Source: Microthyrium microscopicum
Lineage: Eukaryota; Ascomycota; Dothideomycetes; Microthyriales; Microthyriaceae
Direction of reading: 5' to 3'
NCBI GenBank assembly: GCA_010405405.1
Contig: MU004236.1
Coordinates: 508,576 to 572,575 of the forward strand
Length of the DNA: 64,000 bases
The notes below the pieces were generated by a model, which was not told the DNA's origin, searched no databases, and worked only from the letters and a program-made list of their open reading frames with translations. A program made the translations under genes and the position numbers. Of this stretch, positions 49,161 through 60,587 are shown piece by piece; the first letter of the stretch is position 1, and each line of letters opens with the position of its first letter.

Positions 49161-49166
49161 CAAGGG

Positions 49167-49274
49167 TATGATGGCGCATTACTGCCAACCCCGCTCAAGA
49201 TAAGAACTTCTAAACTTCTAAACTTCTAAACTTCTAAACACGTTACTACATTACTACATTAGTGACGTTACCCC
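49167..49274 (+). repeat. Left terminal inverted repeat
   Basis: 108 bp beginning TATGATGGCGCATTACTG, then CTTCTAAA x4 (49207-49238), ending at CCCC. Compared with the right TIR it carries almost only C-to-T type changes. Confidence 0.92.
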
Positions 49275-50518
49275 ATTACTATATTACTATATTACCCTTT
49301 AATCTCTAGAGCTCTAGGTTATTAATTATAGATAATTGCAATCCTACCTTACTACTTAGAAGTTATTATATTTATATTAAGATATATCTTTCTAATAAGT
49401 TAGTATAGTTACATATATATTATATAATAATTAGTAGGAAGTATAAAGTATAAAGTATATAAATAATTACTAAACGTAAGTTTATATTACTATCTAACGA
49501 ATAGGTATATATATATATATCTACCTAAACTAATTAAGTATCTATCTCTTTCCTAGAGTTATTCCTTATACTTTTTACCTTATTACCTTATCTATAATAA
49601 AATGCTAGGCCCTACTTCTATTAATTTAGAGTTCTATTAGGATAAGATTAAAAATCTTATTATAGGATAGTTTTTTACTTATCTAAAAGTTATATATTAG
49701 CTAAAAGAAAACTATAATATTAACGTTACGCTAAGTATACTACGTTAGAGAATTAAGCAATAGAAGATCTAACGCCTTATAGCTTCTTTATTAGAGCGCT
49801 ATAAAAAGCTTAAGGAAATAATAAAATTCTTATTCTATAACAAGAATAGTAATAAAGATAAAATGCTCTATACTCTTTAAACTATAGAATATCTAATAAC
49901 TATGCGAACTCTCTAGCGTTATTAGTAAAAGCTTAGTCTTAAACGCTACTACAAGTTTATATTAGATAAAAATTTTATAATAGCTTACTACTAAGATAAA
50001 GCAATAGTTCTAGCTAAGCTTTATAGAGCTTATTTATTAGTATCATTATATGGCTATTAAGCTCTAGCTACTAGACTTTATAAATATAGATACCTAATTC
50101 TAGAGGCCTAGATTAATTAAATTTAATAAGATTTAGATTTTGTTAATATATAAGCTTACTAAAGATAAAAATATTAAAAACGTAGCAAATATAGAACTAA
50201 AGGCCTAAACTATATCTAGTTAATTAATAGGTATAATAAACTTAAAAAAGTAGGAATTAAAATTTATAGCTATATTAACGCCTACTTACGAAATATAATC
50301 TAGTATTATGTTAGTATATTAAATACTATAAGTATAAGTTATTTATATTAGTACTTAGATTAGTTAACTATTAATCTTATAATCCCTTAGTTTATTCGCT
50401 TAGATTAAGGAAGTAAAACTATAATACTTACTAATACTTATTATAAGTTTATAAAGGCTCTAGAGCATAGAATTTCTTTCTTAGATTATTATCTATATAG
50501 GACTAGTATTATAAATTA

Positions 50519-51397
50519 GAGGATTAAGCGCTAGTAGAGAAGCCTTAGCAAATTAGCATTAACTAAATAATAAGTAAATTATATAACTACGTATACTTAA
50601 GAGTTAGTACTAATATAATAACCTACTAGATATTTTTTAATAGGCTAGTTAATAAGGGTTCTTATTTAAAAGATAAACTTAAGGACTAAATTATAATATT
50701 AGCTATTTACCTTCTTATCCTATAGCGCGTAGTAGAGGAATTTATTAATAACTAGAATAACTATAAAATTATTAACGACAAGAAAAAGTAACTATACGTA
50801 GTAAATAGTAAACCTTAGCATTTATATATCTTTCCCTAAAGAGCGTAAAATATAGGCCTAGTTACTAATCTAGTAGTACTTTAGGCTAAGAAAGTAGTAG
50901 TAGGAAACTAGGATAAGGACACTTTTTTACTACCTAATATACTTTAATAGTATAACGAAAAGCTAGATGTAATAAAATTTAATCCTAATAGTAACTCCTT
51001 TAAAATAGAAGAAGATTAGCATAACCTAACAAACCTATATCTTAATTACTATCTTTGCTTATAAGGAGTAATTAGTCACTATATAGCATTAGGTAATACC
51101 CTAATTCTAGCTACTCTTAAAAATCCTTAGGGCAGTAAAGCTTAGATTAGAGATTACCTAAACTACTCTATAGTTTAAGAGATATAGAGGGCTATAAATA
51201 AAGATAATAGAGATAGTAATATTATAAAGTTCTAGGCTACTATAAAACGTACAGGACTTAGCTATCTTAATAATAATCAATTAGGAGATAATTTTAATAT
51301 TAATTTAGCTAAAGAAGAGGAAATTTAAGCTAGTAATATAGAGAGTAAGGGTAATATAGAAGAGGAGCTTTAGTTTATATTTAGGCGTTTTAATTAA
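50519..51397 (+). pseudogene. Relic reading frame A in the large element
   Basis: One frame can be followed for about 290 codons. Its only interruptions are TAA and TAG, the codons produced from CAA, CAG or TGG by C-to-T or G-to-A change; no TGA was met. It ends in a Glu-rich segment followed by FRRFN and a stop. Residue usage is that of a normal soluble protein with alternating charged and hydrophobic positions. I do not recognise the family. Confidence 0.6.
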
Positions 51398-51532
51398 TAA
51401 TAATAATTTATAACGATTTTATACACTTTAATCACTTTTTAAAACCTTACTATACTAGTAAAGCTTAACACTATAAGGCATATTATTAGATAAATAGCAT
51501 ATTCTCTTTATATTAAGAAGTTAAAGATTTCT

Positions 51533-51580
51533 AAGTCTCTTAAGTCTTTTAAATCTCTTAAATCTCTTAAGTCTCTTAAA
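51533..51580. repeat. 10-bp tandem (AAGTCTCTTA-like, ~5 copies)
   Basis: Imperfect tandem units inside the large element, downstream of relic frame A. Confidence 0.65.
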
Positions 51581-52399
51581 AAGGACAATATAAACGTTAC
51601 TTAAATTTTTAGTTTCTTTCTTTATTCTTAATAGCATTAATAATAGAGTAAGGGCCTATAGTAGCATTAGGCTTAGTACTCTTAAGTACTTATCCCATTA
51701 TTATAAATAGCGTATAAATTAATTACAATTAGGTAACTAAAATATAATACCTAAAGTACTAGGTGCTTATAGGCATATCTCCTAAAAGAGTTATTCTTAT
51801 GCCTTTAGTTATATTTACTAATTTATAAGAGCCTAGGTAAAGATAAATAAAAGATAACCTAAGGCCTTATACATTATCACTACTAACACTATATATAATT
51901 AAAAACCTAGATAATGTAATTAAGGTTTCTAACTCTAAAACGCTACTATAATTATAGTAATATATTAAATAAGAGCTTCTCCTTATTAAGATAGAGGAAT
52001 ATAATAATATCCTATTACAAAATCTAAGTAATAGAAGAACTCTAAATAATTTTGTTAAAGCGCAATATAGTTAGAGAAGCTACTAGAACTATGTAGGATA
52101 TAGATTAATAAATGCTATAGCAAAGCTAGATTCTATCGTATAGAAGATTTAATAAGGCGTATTAGCAATTCCTAAAAAAAAAGGTATAAGATTTTATTAA
52201 GATATAAGTATAAAAACTTACCCTAGTTTAGTTCCTAAAACAACCTTAGTATAAATAGAATAGAAAGTAGAGATCTATTCTTATATTATTAACTATAAGA
52301 CGTAGGGTAACTATATACAATTTAACTTTATTAAAGAATATTATAAGTAGCCTAGTCATTAGGGTAGCTTATACTAACGTATATAATAGCTTTAGTAAA

Positions 52400-53498
52400 T
52401 ATAGACCTTTTTTAGAGTAACGTTAAGAGTATTTAGGACTTTATTTATAAATACCTAGCTCCTTATTTAGACGACATAGTACTTATTAACTATAACAAAG
52501 TCTTTACTCATAGTAGGGGCATTTAAAACGTTAAACTTACTAGCAAAATTAAACTAGGCAAAGAACTTATAGGTTACGTATTCTTAAAGAACAAGAAGGG
52601 TAAGGCTTTAGGCCTTCCTCTAAAGCAAGGAGAGCCTCCTAAGATTAGCCTTATTAGTAGAATATATAATATCATTAAGCTAGCTAGCATTACTATAGGT
52701 AAGTTTATTAAAAGAGCTACCTTTAATATTAATAAGGAGGGTTAACTACAAATTTACCTAATTATATATAAGTATTAGGAGATTATTCTAGACTCTAATT
52801 CTAATGCGTCTATCTTATTAGCGCCTACTTTAAAGACCTTAAAGGTACCTACCCTAAAGACCCTAAAGGCACGCTAGTAGTTACCCTTAGAATAAACCCC
52901 TTTAAGACTTAGGTTAGGTAAAGCTATTAAAGCTAATCTAGGTGCTTAGATAAAGCTTAAGAAAGTTAAGCTTAATATAGACGTCCTTAAGAAGATAAAA
53001 GCTACTATACTAGAAGCTAAGCAAATTATAAAGGATCTATAAATAGCAAAGAATCTAGCAGAGGACAAAAGTAGATAAGGCCCTAAGTCTACTATAAATA
53101 ATAAGAATAATAGCCCTAGTAATAAGAAAAAAGCTATAGCTAGTAGTAAAGATAACAATTCTAATACCTTATTGCTATTACTAAAGACATTATTTTAGTA
53201 ACTAAGAGAGAAGAAAGCTACTAAAGAAGAGAAGGAAGCCACCGCTACTAAGCAAGAGAAGAAAACTACTAAACAAGATATACAGAAGTAGGCCACATTC
53301 TAGGTTAAGCTATTAGAGGACGATATATCTACTTACGCTTCTTAATCTCATAAGGTAGTACTTACTCTAGCGGACGAATAAGTAGCTATAGCTATTAAAG
53401 TAAATATTCTTAAGGTAGCTAAGGCTAACGTAGCAGTAAAGAAGCATAAGGGGCGTAAAGAAAAGGGTGCAAGATATAGACGTAGAGATAAGAAGTAA
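52400..53498 (+). pseudogene. Relic reading frame B in the large element
   Basis: About 360 codons are readable with only TAA/TAG interruptions. The second half is Lys/Glu-rich and alanine-rich, ending in a strongly basic stretch (KKHKGRKEKGARYRRRDKK) before a terminal TAA. A basic C-terminus of this sort is common in fungal DNA-transposon proteins, but no catalytic motif is certain. An isolated PYLDDI string near 52,460 is not followed by the rest of a reverse transcriptase. Family unknown. Confidence 0.6.
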
Positions 53499-54639
53499 GG
53501 TAGCGCTACTTAGTTACGTTAAAAGGCTATTTAGATATCTCTACTTATTTAATACTTATTATAGTTTTATTATACTTATTCTACTCTTTTCCTTACTAAT
53601 TCCTAAATAATTAAGATAGTATTAACTTACTAATAATTACTTAGTAAATACTTTCTTTATAAACTTAGTAGGAGTTCTATATATAATAGATATAATGCTA
53701 TCTTAATTTAGTAAAGAGGCTAGTAAAACCTATAACTACTACTAGCCTATTATTTCTAACTCTATTACTAGAGTCACTAACCTAGAAAGGATATATTAAA
53801 TGCTTAGCTAAAAAGTAAAGAGTAAGCATAGGGAACTTACTAGAGTTCCCTCCTAGTAGTAACGCTATAACTAGGATTAAGCTATATTTAGTAAGTAGAT
53901 CCTACGCTAGGCTTACTAAACTATAAGCTACTTATAACTTAACTAGACTTTAATAAACTCTAGTTTCTTAAAATTATTTTTTAAAGTTAACTAAGCAATC
54001 TTTTATTAAGCCTTAAGTATTACGCCCTTTATACATAGACCTTAAACTTAAATAGGACTAAATCTTAGGAAGGGCTAATACCCTTCCTAAAATAGGACTA
54101 ACTAATTTAATAATATGTCTTTATATAGGTACTATGCGTATGCTATAAAAGAATAAGTAACTAGCTTATTAAACTATTGTGCTCCTTCTTTATTCTACTA
54201 AACTAATGCCCTTATAATACTTAAGTAGTTTATTAACTTATAGGTTAAACCTAAATAAACGTTAGTAAGCATAATAATTAATATAATTTATTAAGTAGAA
54301 GTTACAAAACGTAATATGAAAAACTACTATATAAAGATAAAATAGTTAAGAAACAAGCTTAAGGAATTTACATAATATTGCTATAAATATCACTAAAACT
54401 AGAACTACTAACTAAAAATTAAATTAATTAAAAGTAGTACTAAACTATAAATTTAAAGGCTAAGGAAGTTATTAGTTAAGTATTAATATATTCCTATAAA
54501 AAATTAGTTATATTTCTATCTAATACTATTAGCTACTTACTAAGATATATAATAATAGTTATTAAGCTTTAACTTTAATTCTAATAGACTTTCTTAGGCT
54601 ACTAGTCTATAAAGGAGTCATAGTCTCGTTTAAGGTAGA

Positions 54640-55080
54640 TATGATGTTAGTTAATAGGAAATAACTTAAAGAAGGTTAATAAAGTTAATTATTAGGCCGC
54701 TAGGTACTTAAAGGTAAGGGTAGTAGGCTCTTTAATATCTAGACTATATCCTTTTAAGATTCTCTAATTAGGAGTAACTCTGTTTTTTTCTTTATACGTA
54801 ATATAGTTATCTATATCCTTATTATTAAATTTATAATAGCGCTCTAACTACCTCTTACTATTATACTCATAAAGAGGATAGCCTTTATTAAAGTTAACCT
54901 CCTAAACTAATTGCTTATTCTCTCCTTATTCTATCTTTACTCTATTTATCTCTTTTAAAGCTCTTAAAGATATATTAATTTTTTTAGCATTATTTAAAAT
55001 GCAAACGGGCTAGTAGTACTCTCTCTGTTTAGTACTATCTATCTAAATAAAGCTTACCTTAGCCTTACTTATGCTTTTAA
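54640..55080 (-). pseudogene. Relic reading frame C in the large element
   Basis: On the minus strand about 145 codons are readable with only TAA/TAG interruptions, running from near 55,075 to 54,650. It includes a Cys-containing segment (REYYQPVC), a charged helix (RALKEINRVKIEQ) and a Tyr-rich segment (KGYPLYEYNSKRQLERYY). Because it is opposite to frames A and B, the element carried genes on both strands or is a nested insertion. Family unknown. Confidence 0.55.
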
Positions 55081-58000
55081 GAATTCTTTTTACTTACCTG
55101 CATAATCTCTATAGTCTACCTTAAAAGCGTATTAATAATATTAATACGCCCTCACCTTCTAGAAGATTTAAGTTACTAAACTTAACTAATAAGCCTATTA
55201 TATTACTATTACGATCTATATATATCTTTATCTCCTCTACTTTTGAACGTGCCCTAAAAATATCTAACTTCTCTTTACTATCTATATAGCGCTAAAGGTC
55301 CTTATAGAAGGGCTCTAGGTAAGATTCTTTAATTTAATATTATATTATATTAATTTATATCTAGTTATTAGTATTAAGAACTTAATTAAATCTATAACCC
55401 TTAGAGTAAATATTATCAAAATAATATATAAAACGAAATAAAGCTTATAAATCCTTAGCTACCTCTTAGTAAACTAAGAAAGCAGCTAGAAACATATAAG
55501 CTTTATTTATTTTAAGGACTTTTTAGCTAAATACTTCTATATTAGAATGTCTTATAAAGTAGTAACTTTAACTATAGAGTAAGATCTAGAGAAAGTTATA
55601 CCTATATTAACTTATAATTTTAATCTACCCTCTATCCTAGATAATATACTACTAAAAAGTATGCTATATTAAAAAAGGGTTAAATTTAACTTATATATAT
55701 TATCCTTAGTATTTTTAAGTCTTTATCTTTTAATATTAGACCTTAATTGCCCCCTAGGTAAACTAAGAAAATAATTAGGGTCTAATATAGCTTTAGAGGA
55801 GCTAATACCTACCTAAATTAGGATTTTTATTAATCTAATATTAAGTTAGCATTCTTTTTAATAGTAGAAGAAAGTAGATAAATTCTTATCTATTAGTTAT
55901 CTTGTCACTAATATATATTTCTTCTACGTAAAGTACTACTTTAATTAATAATATAGTAGGTAGGGATCTAGTACTTTATTAGTATATATATAATAAAGTC
56001 CTTAGTAGAGACATACTATTACGTTAGATATAACTATCTTTCTAAAAAGAAGCACTACTAGCTATACTCTAATTAATATTTATGACATATACCTAAGTTT
56101 ATAATTAGCTTTAACCTATTAATATAATATTATCCCTATAGATAGAAGACTTCCTAAAAAGATAAAAGAACTAAATATATAATAAGTACTTAGGGCAGGC
56201 GAAGTAGTGTACTTACTTTGCTATCTTAGGCGTAGTAATAATAAGTAAAAGTAAATATATTAAAAAATAACTACTAAAATAAATAGGGATACTAAAAGCG
56301 ATCCTTACTATCTTAAAGTAGATTAGTAGACAAATAGAGTAAACTTAGGACTTACCTAAAGCGTACGTTATAGGCTTAAATCTAGCAAAGGATAGCCTAT
56401 AATACGCTTTTTGTATTTTTGTTTCTATTAGTTATAATATATAAAATATAAGTCTACTGTTCTATACTCCTAGATATTCTAAATAAACCCTTAGTTTGTT
56501 CTTAAAGTCATTAATTATTACTAGGTAACGAGGTAGATAGATACATAAGCCTTATAAGTTAAAAGTTTAACTACTTAGATTTTATAATATCCCTTTATAA
56601 ATAAGCATAATAACTAGTTAGTAACTACTATAGCTAGTAATATATTTTTAGATATTAGCTAACTCTAAGCTACTCTTTTACTACTTAATCGTCTAGCATT
56701 TAGATATATACTATAGTTACTACTTCTACCTACTAGGAACTAGCACTTTTTAACTTAAGGAGAACGTTACTTAAATAAAGATGTTTAGAAGTAGTTAACT
56801 AGCCTACCTTTATATATTAACAAACTAATAATAATATTTATTAATATTTATTTACATTATCTAGTATGTATTAATAGAAAGTATATCCCTACCTTTCTCA
56901 TAATATACTACTAATTATATACTAAGTAATAAAGTTTCTCTATTTTTTTAGAAGCTTCTATATCTACGTTCTTTTAATAATAATATTTATTACTTTAGAT
57001 TAATAATATGTACTAAGATTTCTATCTAAGGAAAAATTAGGTATATCTAAAGTATAACTACTAGCTAATAAATAATATAGTTAAATTACCTTAATAAGGC
57101 TACCTAGAGTCCTTACCTAATAAACTTAACCTTCCTAGAAAAGATATATACTTTATACTAAAGTAAAGAGTATAACCTCTATTATGCGTTAGGGCTAACG
57201 TATTAGATATACCTATTAATATTAGATTAAGGTAGGATTACTTTTTATAAATAGGAATACTCTTAGTAAAATTAAGAGCCTATAGTTTATATAGGTTAAT
57301 AATTCTATAACCTACTTATACTATTTATATTATTCTTAATATAGTGCTTATGCTTCCTAAGGATATAGGATAGCGTATAGAATTATCTCTATATATAATA
57401 ATAATAAGGCTATAATAATATTAGAAAGTTTTTAGAGAGCCTAGTTTAAATAAAAATTATAGTAGAAAATTATAGTAGTTAGCTTTAGTTTTTAGGCTTT
57501 ACCTTCCTCCTAATTGCTAACTTACTAGTATTTAGTTTAGATAGTATTTAAATAATATGCTAGTTTTTAACTAACTTTCCCCTATATTATAAAATATAAG
57601 CTCCTCTAATATATAGAATGACCTAATTGCTATACCCTAGACTAGAGTATAATTACTACGTAAGTATAATAGATTATATAGAACTATAGCCTTAGGAGAG
57701 CATTGTTAGTAAAATAGATGAAGGAAAAATAAGATTAGACTTAAAAGGTATACTAGAATTACTTTATTATAACTAGTAAGCCTATCTATAAGATAAAATC
57801 TCTAAATAAGGAGGTAATTAGTCGTTATTAATAAGCCTACTATAGATAGTAGTCTACGATAGGCTATAACTAACAAAGGGTAATAATATTATTTATATCT
57901 TATATATAGTGTCTCTAGGTAGTAAGTAGTTATAGCATTTAGTATAACTAAAATACTAATTAATTAATAGTTAAAAACTACCTACATCGCTATAGATTAA

Positions 58001-58561
58001 CTTAGCGTAATATAATATATTAACATAGAATGTATTAACGTTAAAGACGTTAAGACTTTTTTTTAAAAGAAAAAAATTAACATAAAAAATACCTTACTAT
58101 TTTGATCTTCTCTAGAAAGCGTATTAGAGAAAGGTAACTAACAAAGTATAATAAGATATCTCTAACAATAAATGCTAAAGCATAAATAGTTATAAAGATC
58201 ATTATAATATCATCACCTTAAAAGGATCTTAACATTAATTAAAATCTACTAAGATGTTTCTATAGCAATTTTACTAAGTATTAGTATAAATATACTACTT
58301 AACAAGCTTTATTATAGAAAGCTCTGCTTACCTAAGTAATACATAGTATTAAATAATACTACTTAGTAATGGAAAGGCTTTATAGCTATCCTAGCTAGTT
58401 AATACTTATATATCTAGAAAACTAGACTAGGTTATAAAGATAGGTTAAACTAGTAATCTCTACTAGTTTTGGCTACCTTAAAGCTAAGTAATTATTAAAT
58501 AATACTTTAAAAAGTAACTATAAGTTATTCTTTTTATTTTACTAAAATGAATATATATAAC

Positions 58562-58672
58562 AAGTAAAACAATATCTTAATCCCTTAATAATATCTTAAT
58601 CCCTTATGTAGTAAGTAAAATAATATCTTAATCCCTTATATAATAAGTAAAATAATATCTTAATCCCTTATA
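58562..58672. repeat. Tandem repeat with ATATCTTAATCCCTTA core, 4 copies
   Basis: Four copies of a 16-bp core, mostly spaced by AAGTAAAATA-type sequence so that the full unit is about 34 bp. It lies within the large element, about 1.9 kb from its right end. Such arrays can be binding sites or simple expansions; the function is unknown. Confidence 0.75.
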
Positions 58673-60473
58673 CAAGGCATCTCCCTATGAAGGGTAGATA
58701 CCTTAACGTATTCTAATAGGTCGTCCATAGAGCGCGCACTATAAGCAAAATACTAAGTATTTTACTATAAGGTATCTTACTATACGTATTCTCTTAAGTA
58801 GTCTTTAGGGAGGAATAGCATAGTAAGCTTTATAATTAATTTTACGCGTATAGAAGCATACTATACTAGAGAGTATAGGATTAAGAGTAGAAAGAGCCTT
58901 TTAGCTAAGAAGGCTTACTCTATAGTAGTAAGACGTTATTCCTAAAGTAATACTTACTACTAGATTATTATAGTAAGACTACGTAGGTATAAAACTACTA
59001 TGTAGTATAAGCTTAACATTATTATAGATTTTACACAATTTTTAATATTATATATTACAATTTTATAATAATTTTACTTCTTTTTTTTCCTAAAAGAGCT
59101 AAAAATATACTTTACCTCTACTAACTTAGTTCTTAATATAGCCATAGAGGAACTTAGCAAGACTTAGGTATATATACTACTTTCTATATAAACTAGCTTA
59201 GCGCTACTTAGACATAATAGCTAGATTAGAGTTATAGTCTTCCTCTTACTTAATACTAAAAAATCTTACTTTACTAAACCTTCTTTATTATAATTCTATT
59301 GCCTAATCATGTTAATTATGCTTAATTTGACGAGGAAAGATAAACTTATATATAATTTAGCCTTATAAGATTATTATATAGTAGTGCTAACTATCTTAGC
59401 GCTAATCTTATGCTATTTCCTTACTTTTTTTACGTTTTTATAGGCATAGTGTTCTATAATAGTAGGCTAGCCCCTTAAATATTTAAGTATAGATACGTTT
59501 TATAAGATAATTAGTATTTATAAGGAATACTTACGCCTTTAGCATTAGTAGTTCTATTAATTAGTAAGCTAAATAGTATATATAATAATTTAGTACGTAA
59601 GCTAAGGGATATAGGCCTACTAAAACGTAACTTTACCTTATATAATATAAATAGAGAAGTCTAAAATACTCTATATTAATGTCTTAAAGCTTACGCAATT
59701 ATATTAAAAGCTAGAAATTACTTTTAGGGATGTAAATTAGTAGTAGAAGAGTATTAGAAGACGTTATAGCTAAAGGGATAGAAGTTTTTAGCGACTTAGA
59801 CTTACTAAAAGTTAGTGAAGTAGTTATAAGCAAAAAGGATAACGCGCTAGAATAATATTATTTAGTAAGGGATTACGTTCTTCTTACTATTAAGATATAA
59901 TACTTAACCTAAAGGGACAATATATAAAGGAATAACCTAAGAACCTACGAAAGGGACAATACCTTAAAAGAGACATCGTAGCTAAGGCTTACCTATAAGC
60001 TAATTTAGTAAGGAACTACTACTACTAAGCTTTACTAAACTTTACTATAGTTATAAATCTATAACCTTGCTTTTATCTTTCTAAGGGAGGAGCCTTATAG
60101 TGCTTACCCTAATTAAAACCCTTACGTAGTATTAGTTTATTTATTAAAGCTATTTTAGAAGAGATATTATAAGTATAGTCCTCCTAAAGAATATTCCCTT
60201 ACTAAATTTAGCAAGCTTCTTTACGAACTAATATCTTTACTTATAACATATCCTTATAACTATACTAAAATCTACATATAGCCTGCTAAACTCCTTCTAT
60301 GCAAGCTATAGTATTATATAAGGATACTACCTTACTAAATATTAGTAACCTTATTATAAACAAAGATAATTTCTACTACTAAAATATAAAAAATAATTAT
60401 TACTAAAAATACTATCTAGAGATAGCCCTAACTAAGGGTAGGGCAGAATAGGTATTAGAATTAATATTAATGG

Positions 60474-60581
60474 GGGGTAGCGTCGCTAATGTGGTAATGT
60501 AGTAACGTGTTTAGAAGTTTAGAAGTTTAGAAGTTTAGAAGTTCTTATCTTGAGCGGTGTTGGCGGTAATGCGCCGTCATA
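60474..60581 (-). repeat. Right terminal inverted repeat
   Basis: 108 bp, the reverse complement of the left TIR, with TTTAGAAG x4 at 60510-60541 and the end GGCGGTAATGCGCCGTCATA. It keeps C at several sites where the left copy has T. Confidence 0.92.
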
Positions 60582-60587
60582 CAAGGG

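Follow-up and report, generated by a model that had tools for sequence, protein, structure and literature searches.

A probable IS3EU-like DNA transposon of Microthyrium microscopicum, broken by RIP, that shares a nearly identical inner segment with elements of diverged transposase families

The window, i.e. the whole stretch of 64,000 nucleotides of Microthyrium microscopicum DNA that was analysed, contains an insertion of 11,415 bp (49,167-60,581) with the ends TATGATGG...CCGTCATA. This insertion is a genuine transposon of a known kind that has been killed by mutation. Its features are given here in order of position; families A to D are described below.

49,161-49,166, no strand: left target-site duplication, CAAGGG (from the sequence).
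49,167-49,274, plus strand: left terminal inverted repeat (TIR) with four CTTCTAAA units (from arm pairing and 15 genome matches).
49,620-50,627, plus strand: RIP-broken transposase frame, with an N-terminal helix-turn-helix/Clr5-like part followed by an integrase-core part (from protein conservation between families, codon-position bias and matches in related copies).
50,561-51,937, plus strand: probable continuation of the transposase in another frame, after an intron or a frame change (31% identity over 470 aligned positions with the family C read-through frame).
54,700-59,650, no strand: shared core, in which families A, B, C and D differ by 0.11-0.35% transversions (58,900-59,200 excluded).
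54,725-54,889, minus strand: 55-residue coding stretch similar to the intact open reading frame (ORF) L047:1517-2554 (52.7% identity, E 1.5e-15; genome search E 2.6e-14).
59,017-59,111, no strand: patch with variants that cross family lines; in the window copy it takes the form found in C1a and all five B elements.
60,474-60,581, minus strand: right TIR (from arm pairing).
60,582-60,587, no strand: right target-site duplication, CAAGGG.

The earlier note, made from the window alone, had described a single TIR insertion with intact ends and a step in base composition at its borders, and both descriptions hold. The inverted arms (49,166-49,274 and 60,474-60,582) pair over 109 nt with 94% complementarity and are flanked on both sides by CAAGGG; GC content is 0.26 within the element as against 0.50 and 0.54 in the 500-bp flanks. 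The four CTTCTAAA units that it counted in each TIR are present in both arms of the window copy, whereas the left arms of four related copies (C8, C2, C4 and C12) have three. Tandem 32-bp units occupy 58,568-58,682; in this region, the window copy is 51 bp longer than most or all of the nine others in the alignment (a gap of 51 bases is seen in the four that were compared).

A search for further copies of the TIR had been set beforehand as a test that might refute the element. With the 108-nt TIR as query, 15 matches were found in the 36.9-Mb genome, corresponding to six long and two short elements, and the proposal was thus not refuted. The six long elements constitute family A and are labelled by contig as C7 (the window copy), C8, C2, C4, C12 and C5. 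The short elements (L017 and L018; 589 and 553 bp) have family-A-type ends, duplications of 6 or 7 bp and a mutual identity of 75%. Two of the long elements carry nested inserts, of 4 kb in C12 and 44 kb in C5. That in C12 (L015-L016; 4.0 kb) has the inverted ends TATAGTRTTATTAGG and is perhaps a TA-target transposon; that in C5 (L019-L024), at positions 1,728-45,921 of the joined stretch, is AT-rich and has its own short inverted ends of about 20 bp. The C5 element also reads N over 13.6 kb.

An internal segment (54,000-58,000) used as query yielded additional copies that lack the window TIR, eleven of which were retrieved, whole or in part. Five of these make up family B, two family C, and one (C6) is termed family D; C14, C16 and C4b are partial copies. 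Search matches alone point to one more copy, near C5:2,526,660, and to fragments on C4 and C11. Families B and C each have their own TIRs, of about 195 and 214 nt, respectively. The left half of C6 is different again from those of A, B and C; a search for its TIR found none, and its ends were not located. Partial cores (L044, L045, L046 and C12:1,475-5,539) lie within about 1.5 to 55 kb of contig ends.

Fifteen elements could be delimited at both ends, and all have termini of the form TATRAY..(A/G)T(C/T)ATA, starting with TAT and ending with ATA. With the ends fixed at TATRAY and its complement, exact target duplications of 5-7 bp are found in 14 of the 15; a 5-base match at fixed places is expected by chance in about 1 in 1000 per element. 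The duplications are exact in all eight family A elements (6, 6, 6, 7, 6, 6, 7 and 6 bp) and measure 5 bp in all five of family B. One family C element has 5 bp; the other has no exact match (AACGGG versus GACGGG). The window element is, then, no isolated curiosity: its family has several copies, and sister families occur alongside it in the genome. As a named repeat, the family is likely to be new.

RIP targets CpA and its complement TpG and does not produce transversions. The proposal that the element is RIP-mutated is borne out by the ratio (CA+TG)/(AC+GT), which at 0.05-0.25 across the six long family A copies reflects depletion of CpA/TpG; ratios of 0.58 and 1.37 in the two short copies indicate that the smallest elements were hit little or not at all. 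Pairwise comparison of C8, C2, C4 and C12 shows 836-1019 transitions as against 1-8 transversions. The window copy is separated from these four by 21-28 transversions, and C5 from the other long A copies by 135-151, the first 1.2 kb of C5 being 79% identical. Given this dominance of transitions, almost all divergence among A copies is of RIP type. A genome search with the catalytic piece of the transposase found 15 places, every one with at least nine stops; thus, no intact transposase copy is seen in the assembly.

Despite this decay, the gene in the left half can still be traced. A conserved plus-strand frame begins at about 49,360 and goes on in another frame to about 51,940, and the best matches of six-frame comparisons of the left half all fall in one plus-strand frame. 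Protein identity in this frame is 39.9% over 459 positions between A and B, 40.1% over 429 between A and C, 37.5% over 467 between B and C, and 27.2% over 449 between A and D. Transversions at the first, second and third codon positions number 69/52/110 (A-B), 71/54/105 (A-C) and 72/59/121 (B-C); the excess at third positions implies that the gene was under protein selection in the A, B and C lineages. The frame includes a block with residues that are invariant across families, which we take to be the D-D-E core from its likeness to integrase-type transposases.

In the window copy, the supposed triad codons start at 50,226 (reading N), 50,403 (D) and 50,526 (reading K). At the first catalytic Asp position, all 12 copies have Asn, as an AAT codon preceded by T, the unmutated form of which would be TGAT. 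The second position is Asp in ten copies and Asn in two, while the third is Lys after T in families A and C and Glu after A in B. Since RIP acts at CpA/TpG, these changes agree with what the neighbouring base predicts.

When stops were read as Q, W or R, the Pfam profile rva_4 ("Integrase core domain"), which presumably covers the IS3EU transposases, matched 3 of 12 copies (E 5.7e-4, 0.0077 and 5.2), and Clr5 matched 5 of 12 (E 0.011-9.2). All these matches fall below the curated cut-offs, and their positions are consistent across copies; the window copy, read through in the same way, matches neither profile. With stops as X, Pfam gave no matches in six whole element frames, eight pieces and 12 catalytic pieces. 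A genome search with PF24764 gave no match; as this profile is weakly present in the read-through copies, this result and those for PF02816 and PF03175 mentioned below mean little. PDB profile searches with the transposase found no integrase among the solved structures; the sole matches, to proteasome subunits (E 0.021-0.052), were taken as chance. A fold model of the transposase was poor (mean pLDDT 42.5, with values above 70 in the N-terminal helices alone). Matches to AP2 and Gly_acyl_tr_C in read-through frames were likewise treated as chance, and a reverse-transcriptase-like motif near 52,190-52,480 was dropped, having no support in Pfam scans of the element's six frames.

The divergence of the left half contrasts with the core. 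Ten elements were aligned, namely three of the six long A copies (C7, C4 and C8), four of the five B elements (C1b, C2b, C7b and C1c), both C elements (C1a and C5b) and one D element (C6); C8b was excluded because of repeated segments close to its right end. In the left part (49,167-53,500), families differ from each other by 28.0-34.3% transversions, compared with 0.05-0.09% within A, none within B and 0.21% within C. Transversions in the core within families amount to 0.04% (A), 0-0.17% (B) and 0.26% (C). Homology around the core extends more widely, from about 54,000 to 60,280. The transition on the left side is gradual, spanning about 53.9-54.7 kb, and on the right side the border is placed at about 60.2-60.3 kb in B and C and at about 59.7 kb in D. 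Transversions thus set shell and core apart about a hundredfold, and exchange can be counted despite heavy RIP.

Variants within the core also cross family lines. Of the 1895 transversion-variable columns of the left part, 11 divide a family; of the 56 in the core, 49 do so. The rarer state at 24 of those 49 columns is present in at least two families, with 19 such columns at 59,017-59,111 and the other five elsewhere in the core. Comparison of 17 copies over this patch revealed that, unlike the window copy, the remaining five A elements match C5b and C6; a further variant is common to C2b and C1a. In addition, the C5b core is five transversions away from each of the three A cores and 12 from its sister C1a, with which it shares its left part (8 transversions in 3843). 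The crossing variants and the affinity of the C5b core are not explained by one transfer per family. A single AT-rich patch holds most of the sites that cross family lines, which makes any count of exchanges uncertain. The alignments suggest that elements of different families trade parts around the nearly identical inner segment, and recombination may well have put one core into different transposase/TIR modules.

An alternative is that the core is a separate repeat, for example a subtelomeric one or a nested element, which each lineage took up, with no exchange between elements. Near contig ends, partial cores occur that lack these TIRs (C14, C16, C4 and C12), which is in keeping with such an origin, as is the difference of 0.63-1.17% transversions between three partial cores and the window core. 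Nevertheless, families A, B and C hold the core in the same place and orientation, its border at 53.9-54.7 kb is graded, and variants that cross the A, B and C lines are not what one capture per lineage would give. Separate capture is therefore regarded as unlikely, and exchange between elements is preferred.

As to the kind of element in which this exchange would have occurred, the earlier note could not place it in a known superfamily but had offered IS3EU-like elements among several candidates. This candidate is supported, and a provisional placement is possible. Complete IS3EU families have TA..TA ends and duplications of usually 6 bp, and published signs of IS3EU/GingerRoot elements combine these with an integrase-core match (PMC10045372, as far as the available text goes). 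Here, TA..TA termini occur in 15 of 15 delimited elements; duplications are of 6 or 7 bp in 8 of 8 family A elements, with family B deviating at 5 bp. IS3EU elements of rust fungi (Pucciniales) are described, in the accessible part of the source, as having TIRs of more than 30 bp and the ends TAYGG..CCRTA (PMC12730594). The TIR of the window copy, at 109 nt, is of such length; the ends here are TATGAYGG..CCRTCATA, with GG three bases further in, and the published form is given for Pucciniales and not as a rule of the superfamily. An alpha-kinase gene opposite the transposase appears, from the partial account, to be a trait of TET+ IS3EU members of rust fungi; a search of the genome with PF02816 gave no match, and its positive control was also silent everywhere.

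Taken together, the TA..TA ends and 6-bp duplications, along with the Clr5-type N-terminus and the likeness to rva_4 that related copies show, make IS3EU-like the best placement, provisionally and on the basis of sequence comparison. An assignment outside IS3EU proper, to a new superfamily or a different one related to integrases (for instance a branch resembling GingerRoot or IS481EU, or one that has no name), would be in line with the duplication size that varies by family (6 in A, 5 in B), the inexact match to published fungal ends and the sub-threshold domain matches. Against this stands the combination of ends, duplications and integrase-core match, which in the available text of PMC10045372 marks IS3EU/GingerRoot, and the assignment is considered rather improbable.

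Within the core of this IS3EU-like element, stop frequencies favour minus-strand frames in several stretches. The ORF that resembles the 55-residue minus-strand stretch is intact, encodes 345 aa with a CxxC..CxxC stretch and lies elsewhere on contig C1; a Pfam scan of it gave nothing above cut-off. The likeness indicates that coding sequence made up at least some of the core, and that either the element took up a host exon or the ORF derived from such an element. A DUF2812 match (E 5.6e-5) in one of 24 core frames from eight copies was treated as chance. The minus-strand coding stretch might invite the explanation that the core stayed identical through selection on a useful gene, or through slow evolution, and not through exchange. 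Yet transversion identity extends over about 5 kb, including stretches without any open low-stop frame, and even in the protein-conserved catalytic part of the transposase (50,167-50,667), the transversions that separate A from B or C amount to 13-22%; this explanation is highly improbable.

Polintons end in AG..TC, and the Maverick/Polinton identity raised by the earlier note on account of large size and 6-bp duplication is regarded as most improbable, since the ends are TATGAY (TATRAY across the elements, so that its observation of termini other than AG..TC was correct), none of five rve matches in the genome lies within the window element, and DNA_pol_B_2 (PF03175) has no match in the genome, a weak negative given that RIP hides genes and that the control matched in E. 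coli only, below cut-off.

The best explanation, with a probability of roughly 70%, is a dead IS3EU-like cut-and-paste transposon whose core was swapped by recombination between co-resident elements. The left gene would have made a DDE transposase whose helix-turn-helix N-terminus bound the TIRs; this enzyme would have excised the element and inserted it at a target site cut with a stagger of 6 bp, or of 5 bp in the sister family B. Copy number would have increased within a short period, and RIP would afterwards have mutated all copies examined. Co-resident elements would have recombined, most simply through gap repair or gene conversion templated by a copy from a different family, and recombination would repeatedly have set one nearly identical core between different transposase/TIR modules.

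A wider reading can be put forward tentatively, at somewhat less than even odds: the families may form an IS3EU-like exchange system, in which transposase and TIR modules that have diverged to saturation share one 5-kb core and, as live elements recombine, continually re-homogenise it, so that the core can switch enzyme. The window copy would then consist of an A shell with a B-type patch. Transposase lineages are usually assumed to evolve together with the element that they move; this is a concrete case in which element trees based on the transposase and on the rest must disagree. It also offers a test of how large transposons gain and retain passenger sequence.

Within the literature searched, no description was found of diverged IS3EU transposases that have a single core in common. 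With IS3EU/GingerRoot elements, as described in the available text of PMC10045372 and PMC12730594, the present families share TA..TA ends, long TIRs, the 6-bp duplications of family A and signs of an integrase-type transposase. They differ in the 5-bp duplications of family B, in ends of TATGAYGG instead of TAYGG, and in the one core common to diverged transposase lineages; alpha-kinase, too, was not found in the genome (control silent).

Styx of Zymoseptoria, as far as its available description goes (PMC10853768), is likewise an ascomycete IS3EU element. It duplicates 6 bp of its target, carries passenger genes and has subelements whose TIRs are distinct; it is exposed to RIP, and its dead copies are mobile, degenerate ones being movable in trans. 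It is smaller (7.9 kb versus 11.4 kb) and keeps intact copies, whereas the copies examined here are all broken. In the accessible part of that description, no mention was found of an identical core common to diverged transposases (PMC10853768).

The closest parallel to a travelling module is provided by fungal TET/JBP genes, which, according to the available part of PMC12730594, have passed between transposon superfamilies, in one case with more than 70% DNA identity. In both systems, a module moves between transposon lineages while the transposases remain different. Single genes are transferred there, whereas about 5 kb were nearly identical here before RIP, and the exchange here seems to have been repeated, inside one genome.
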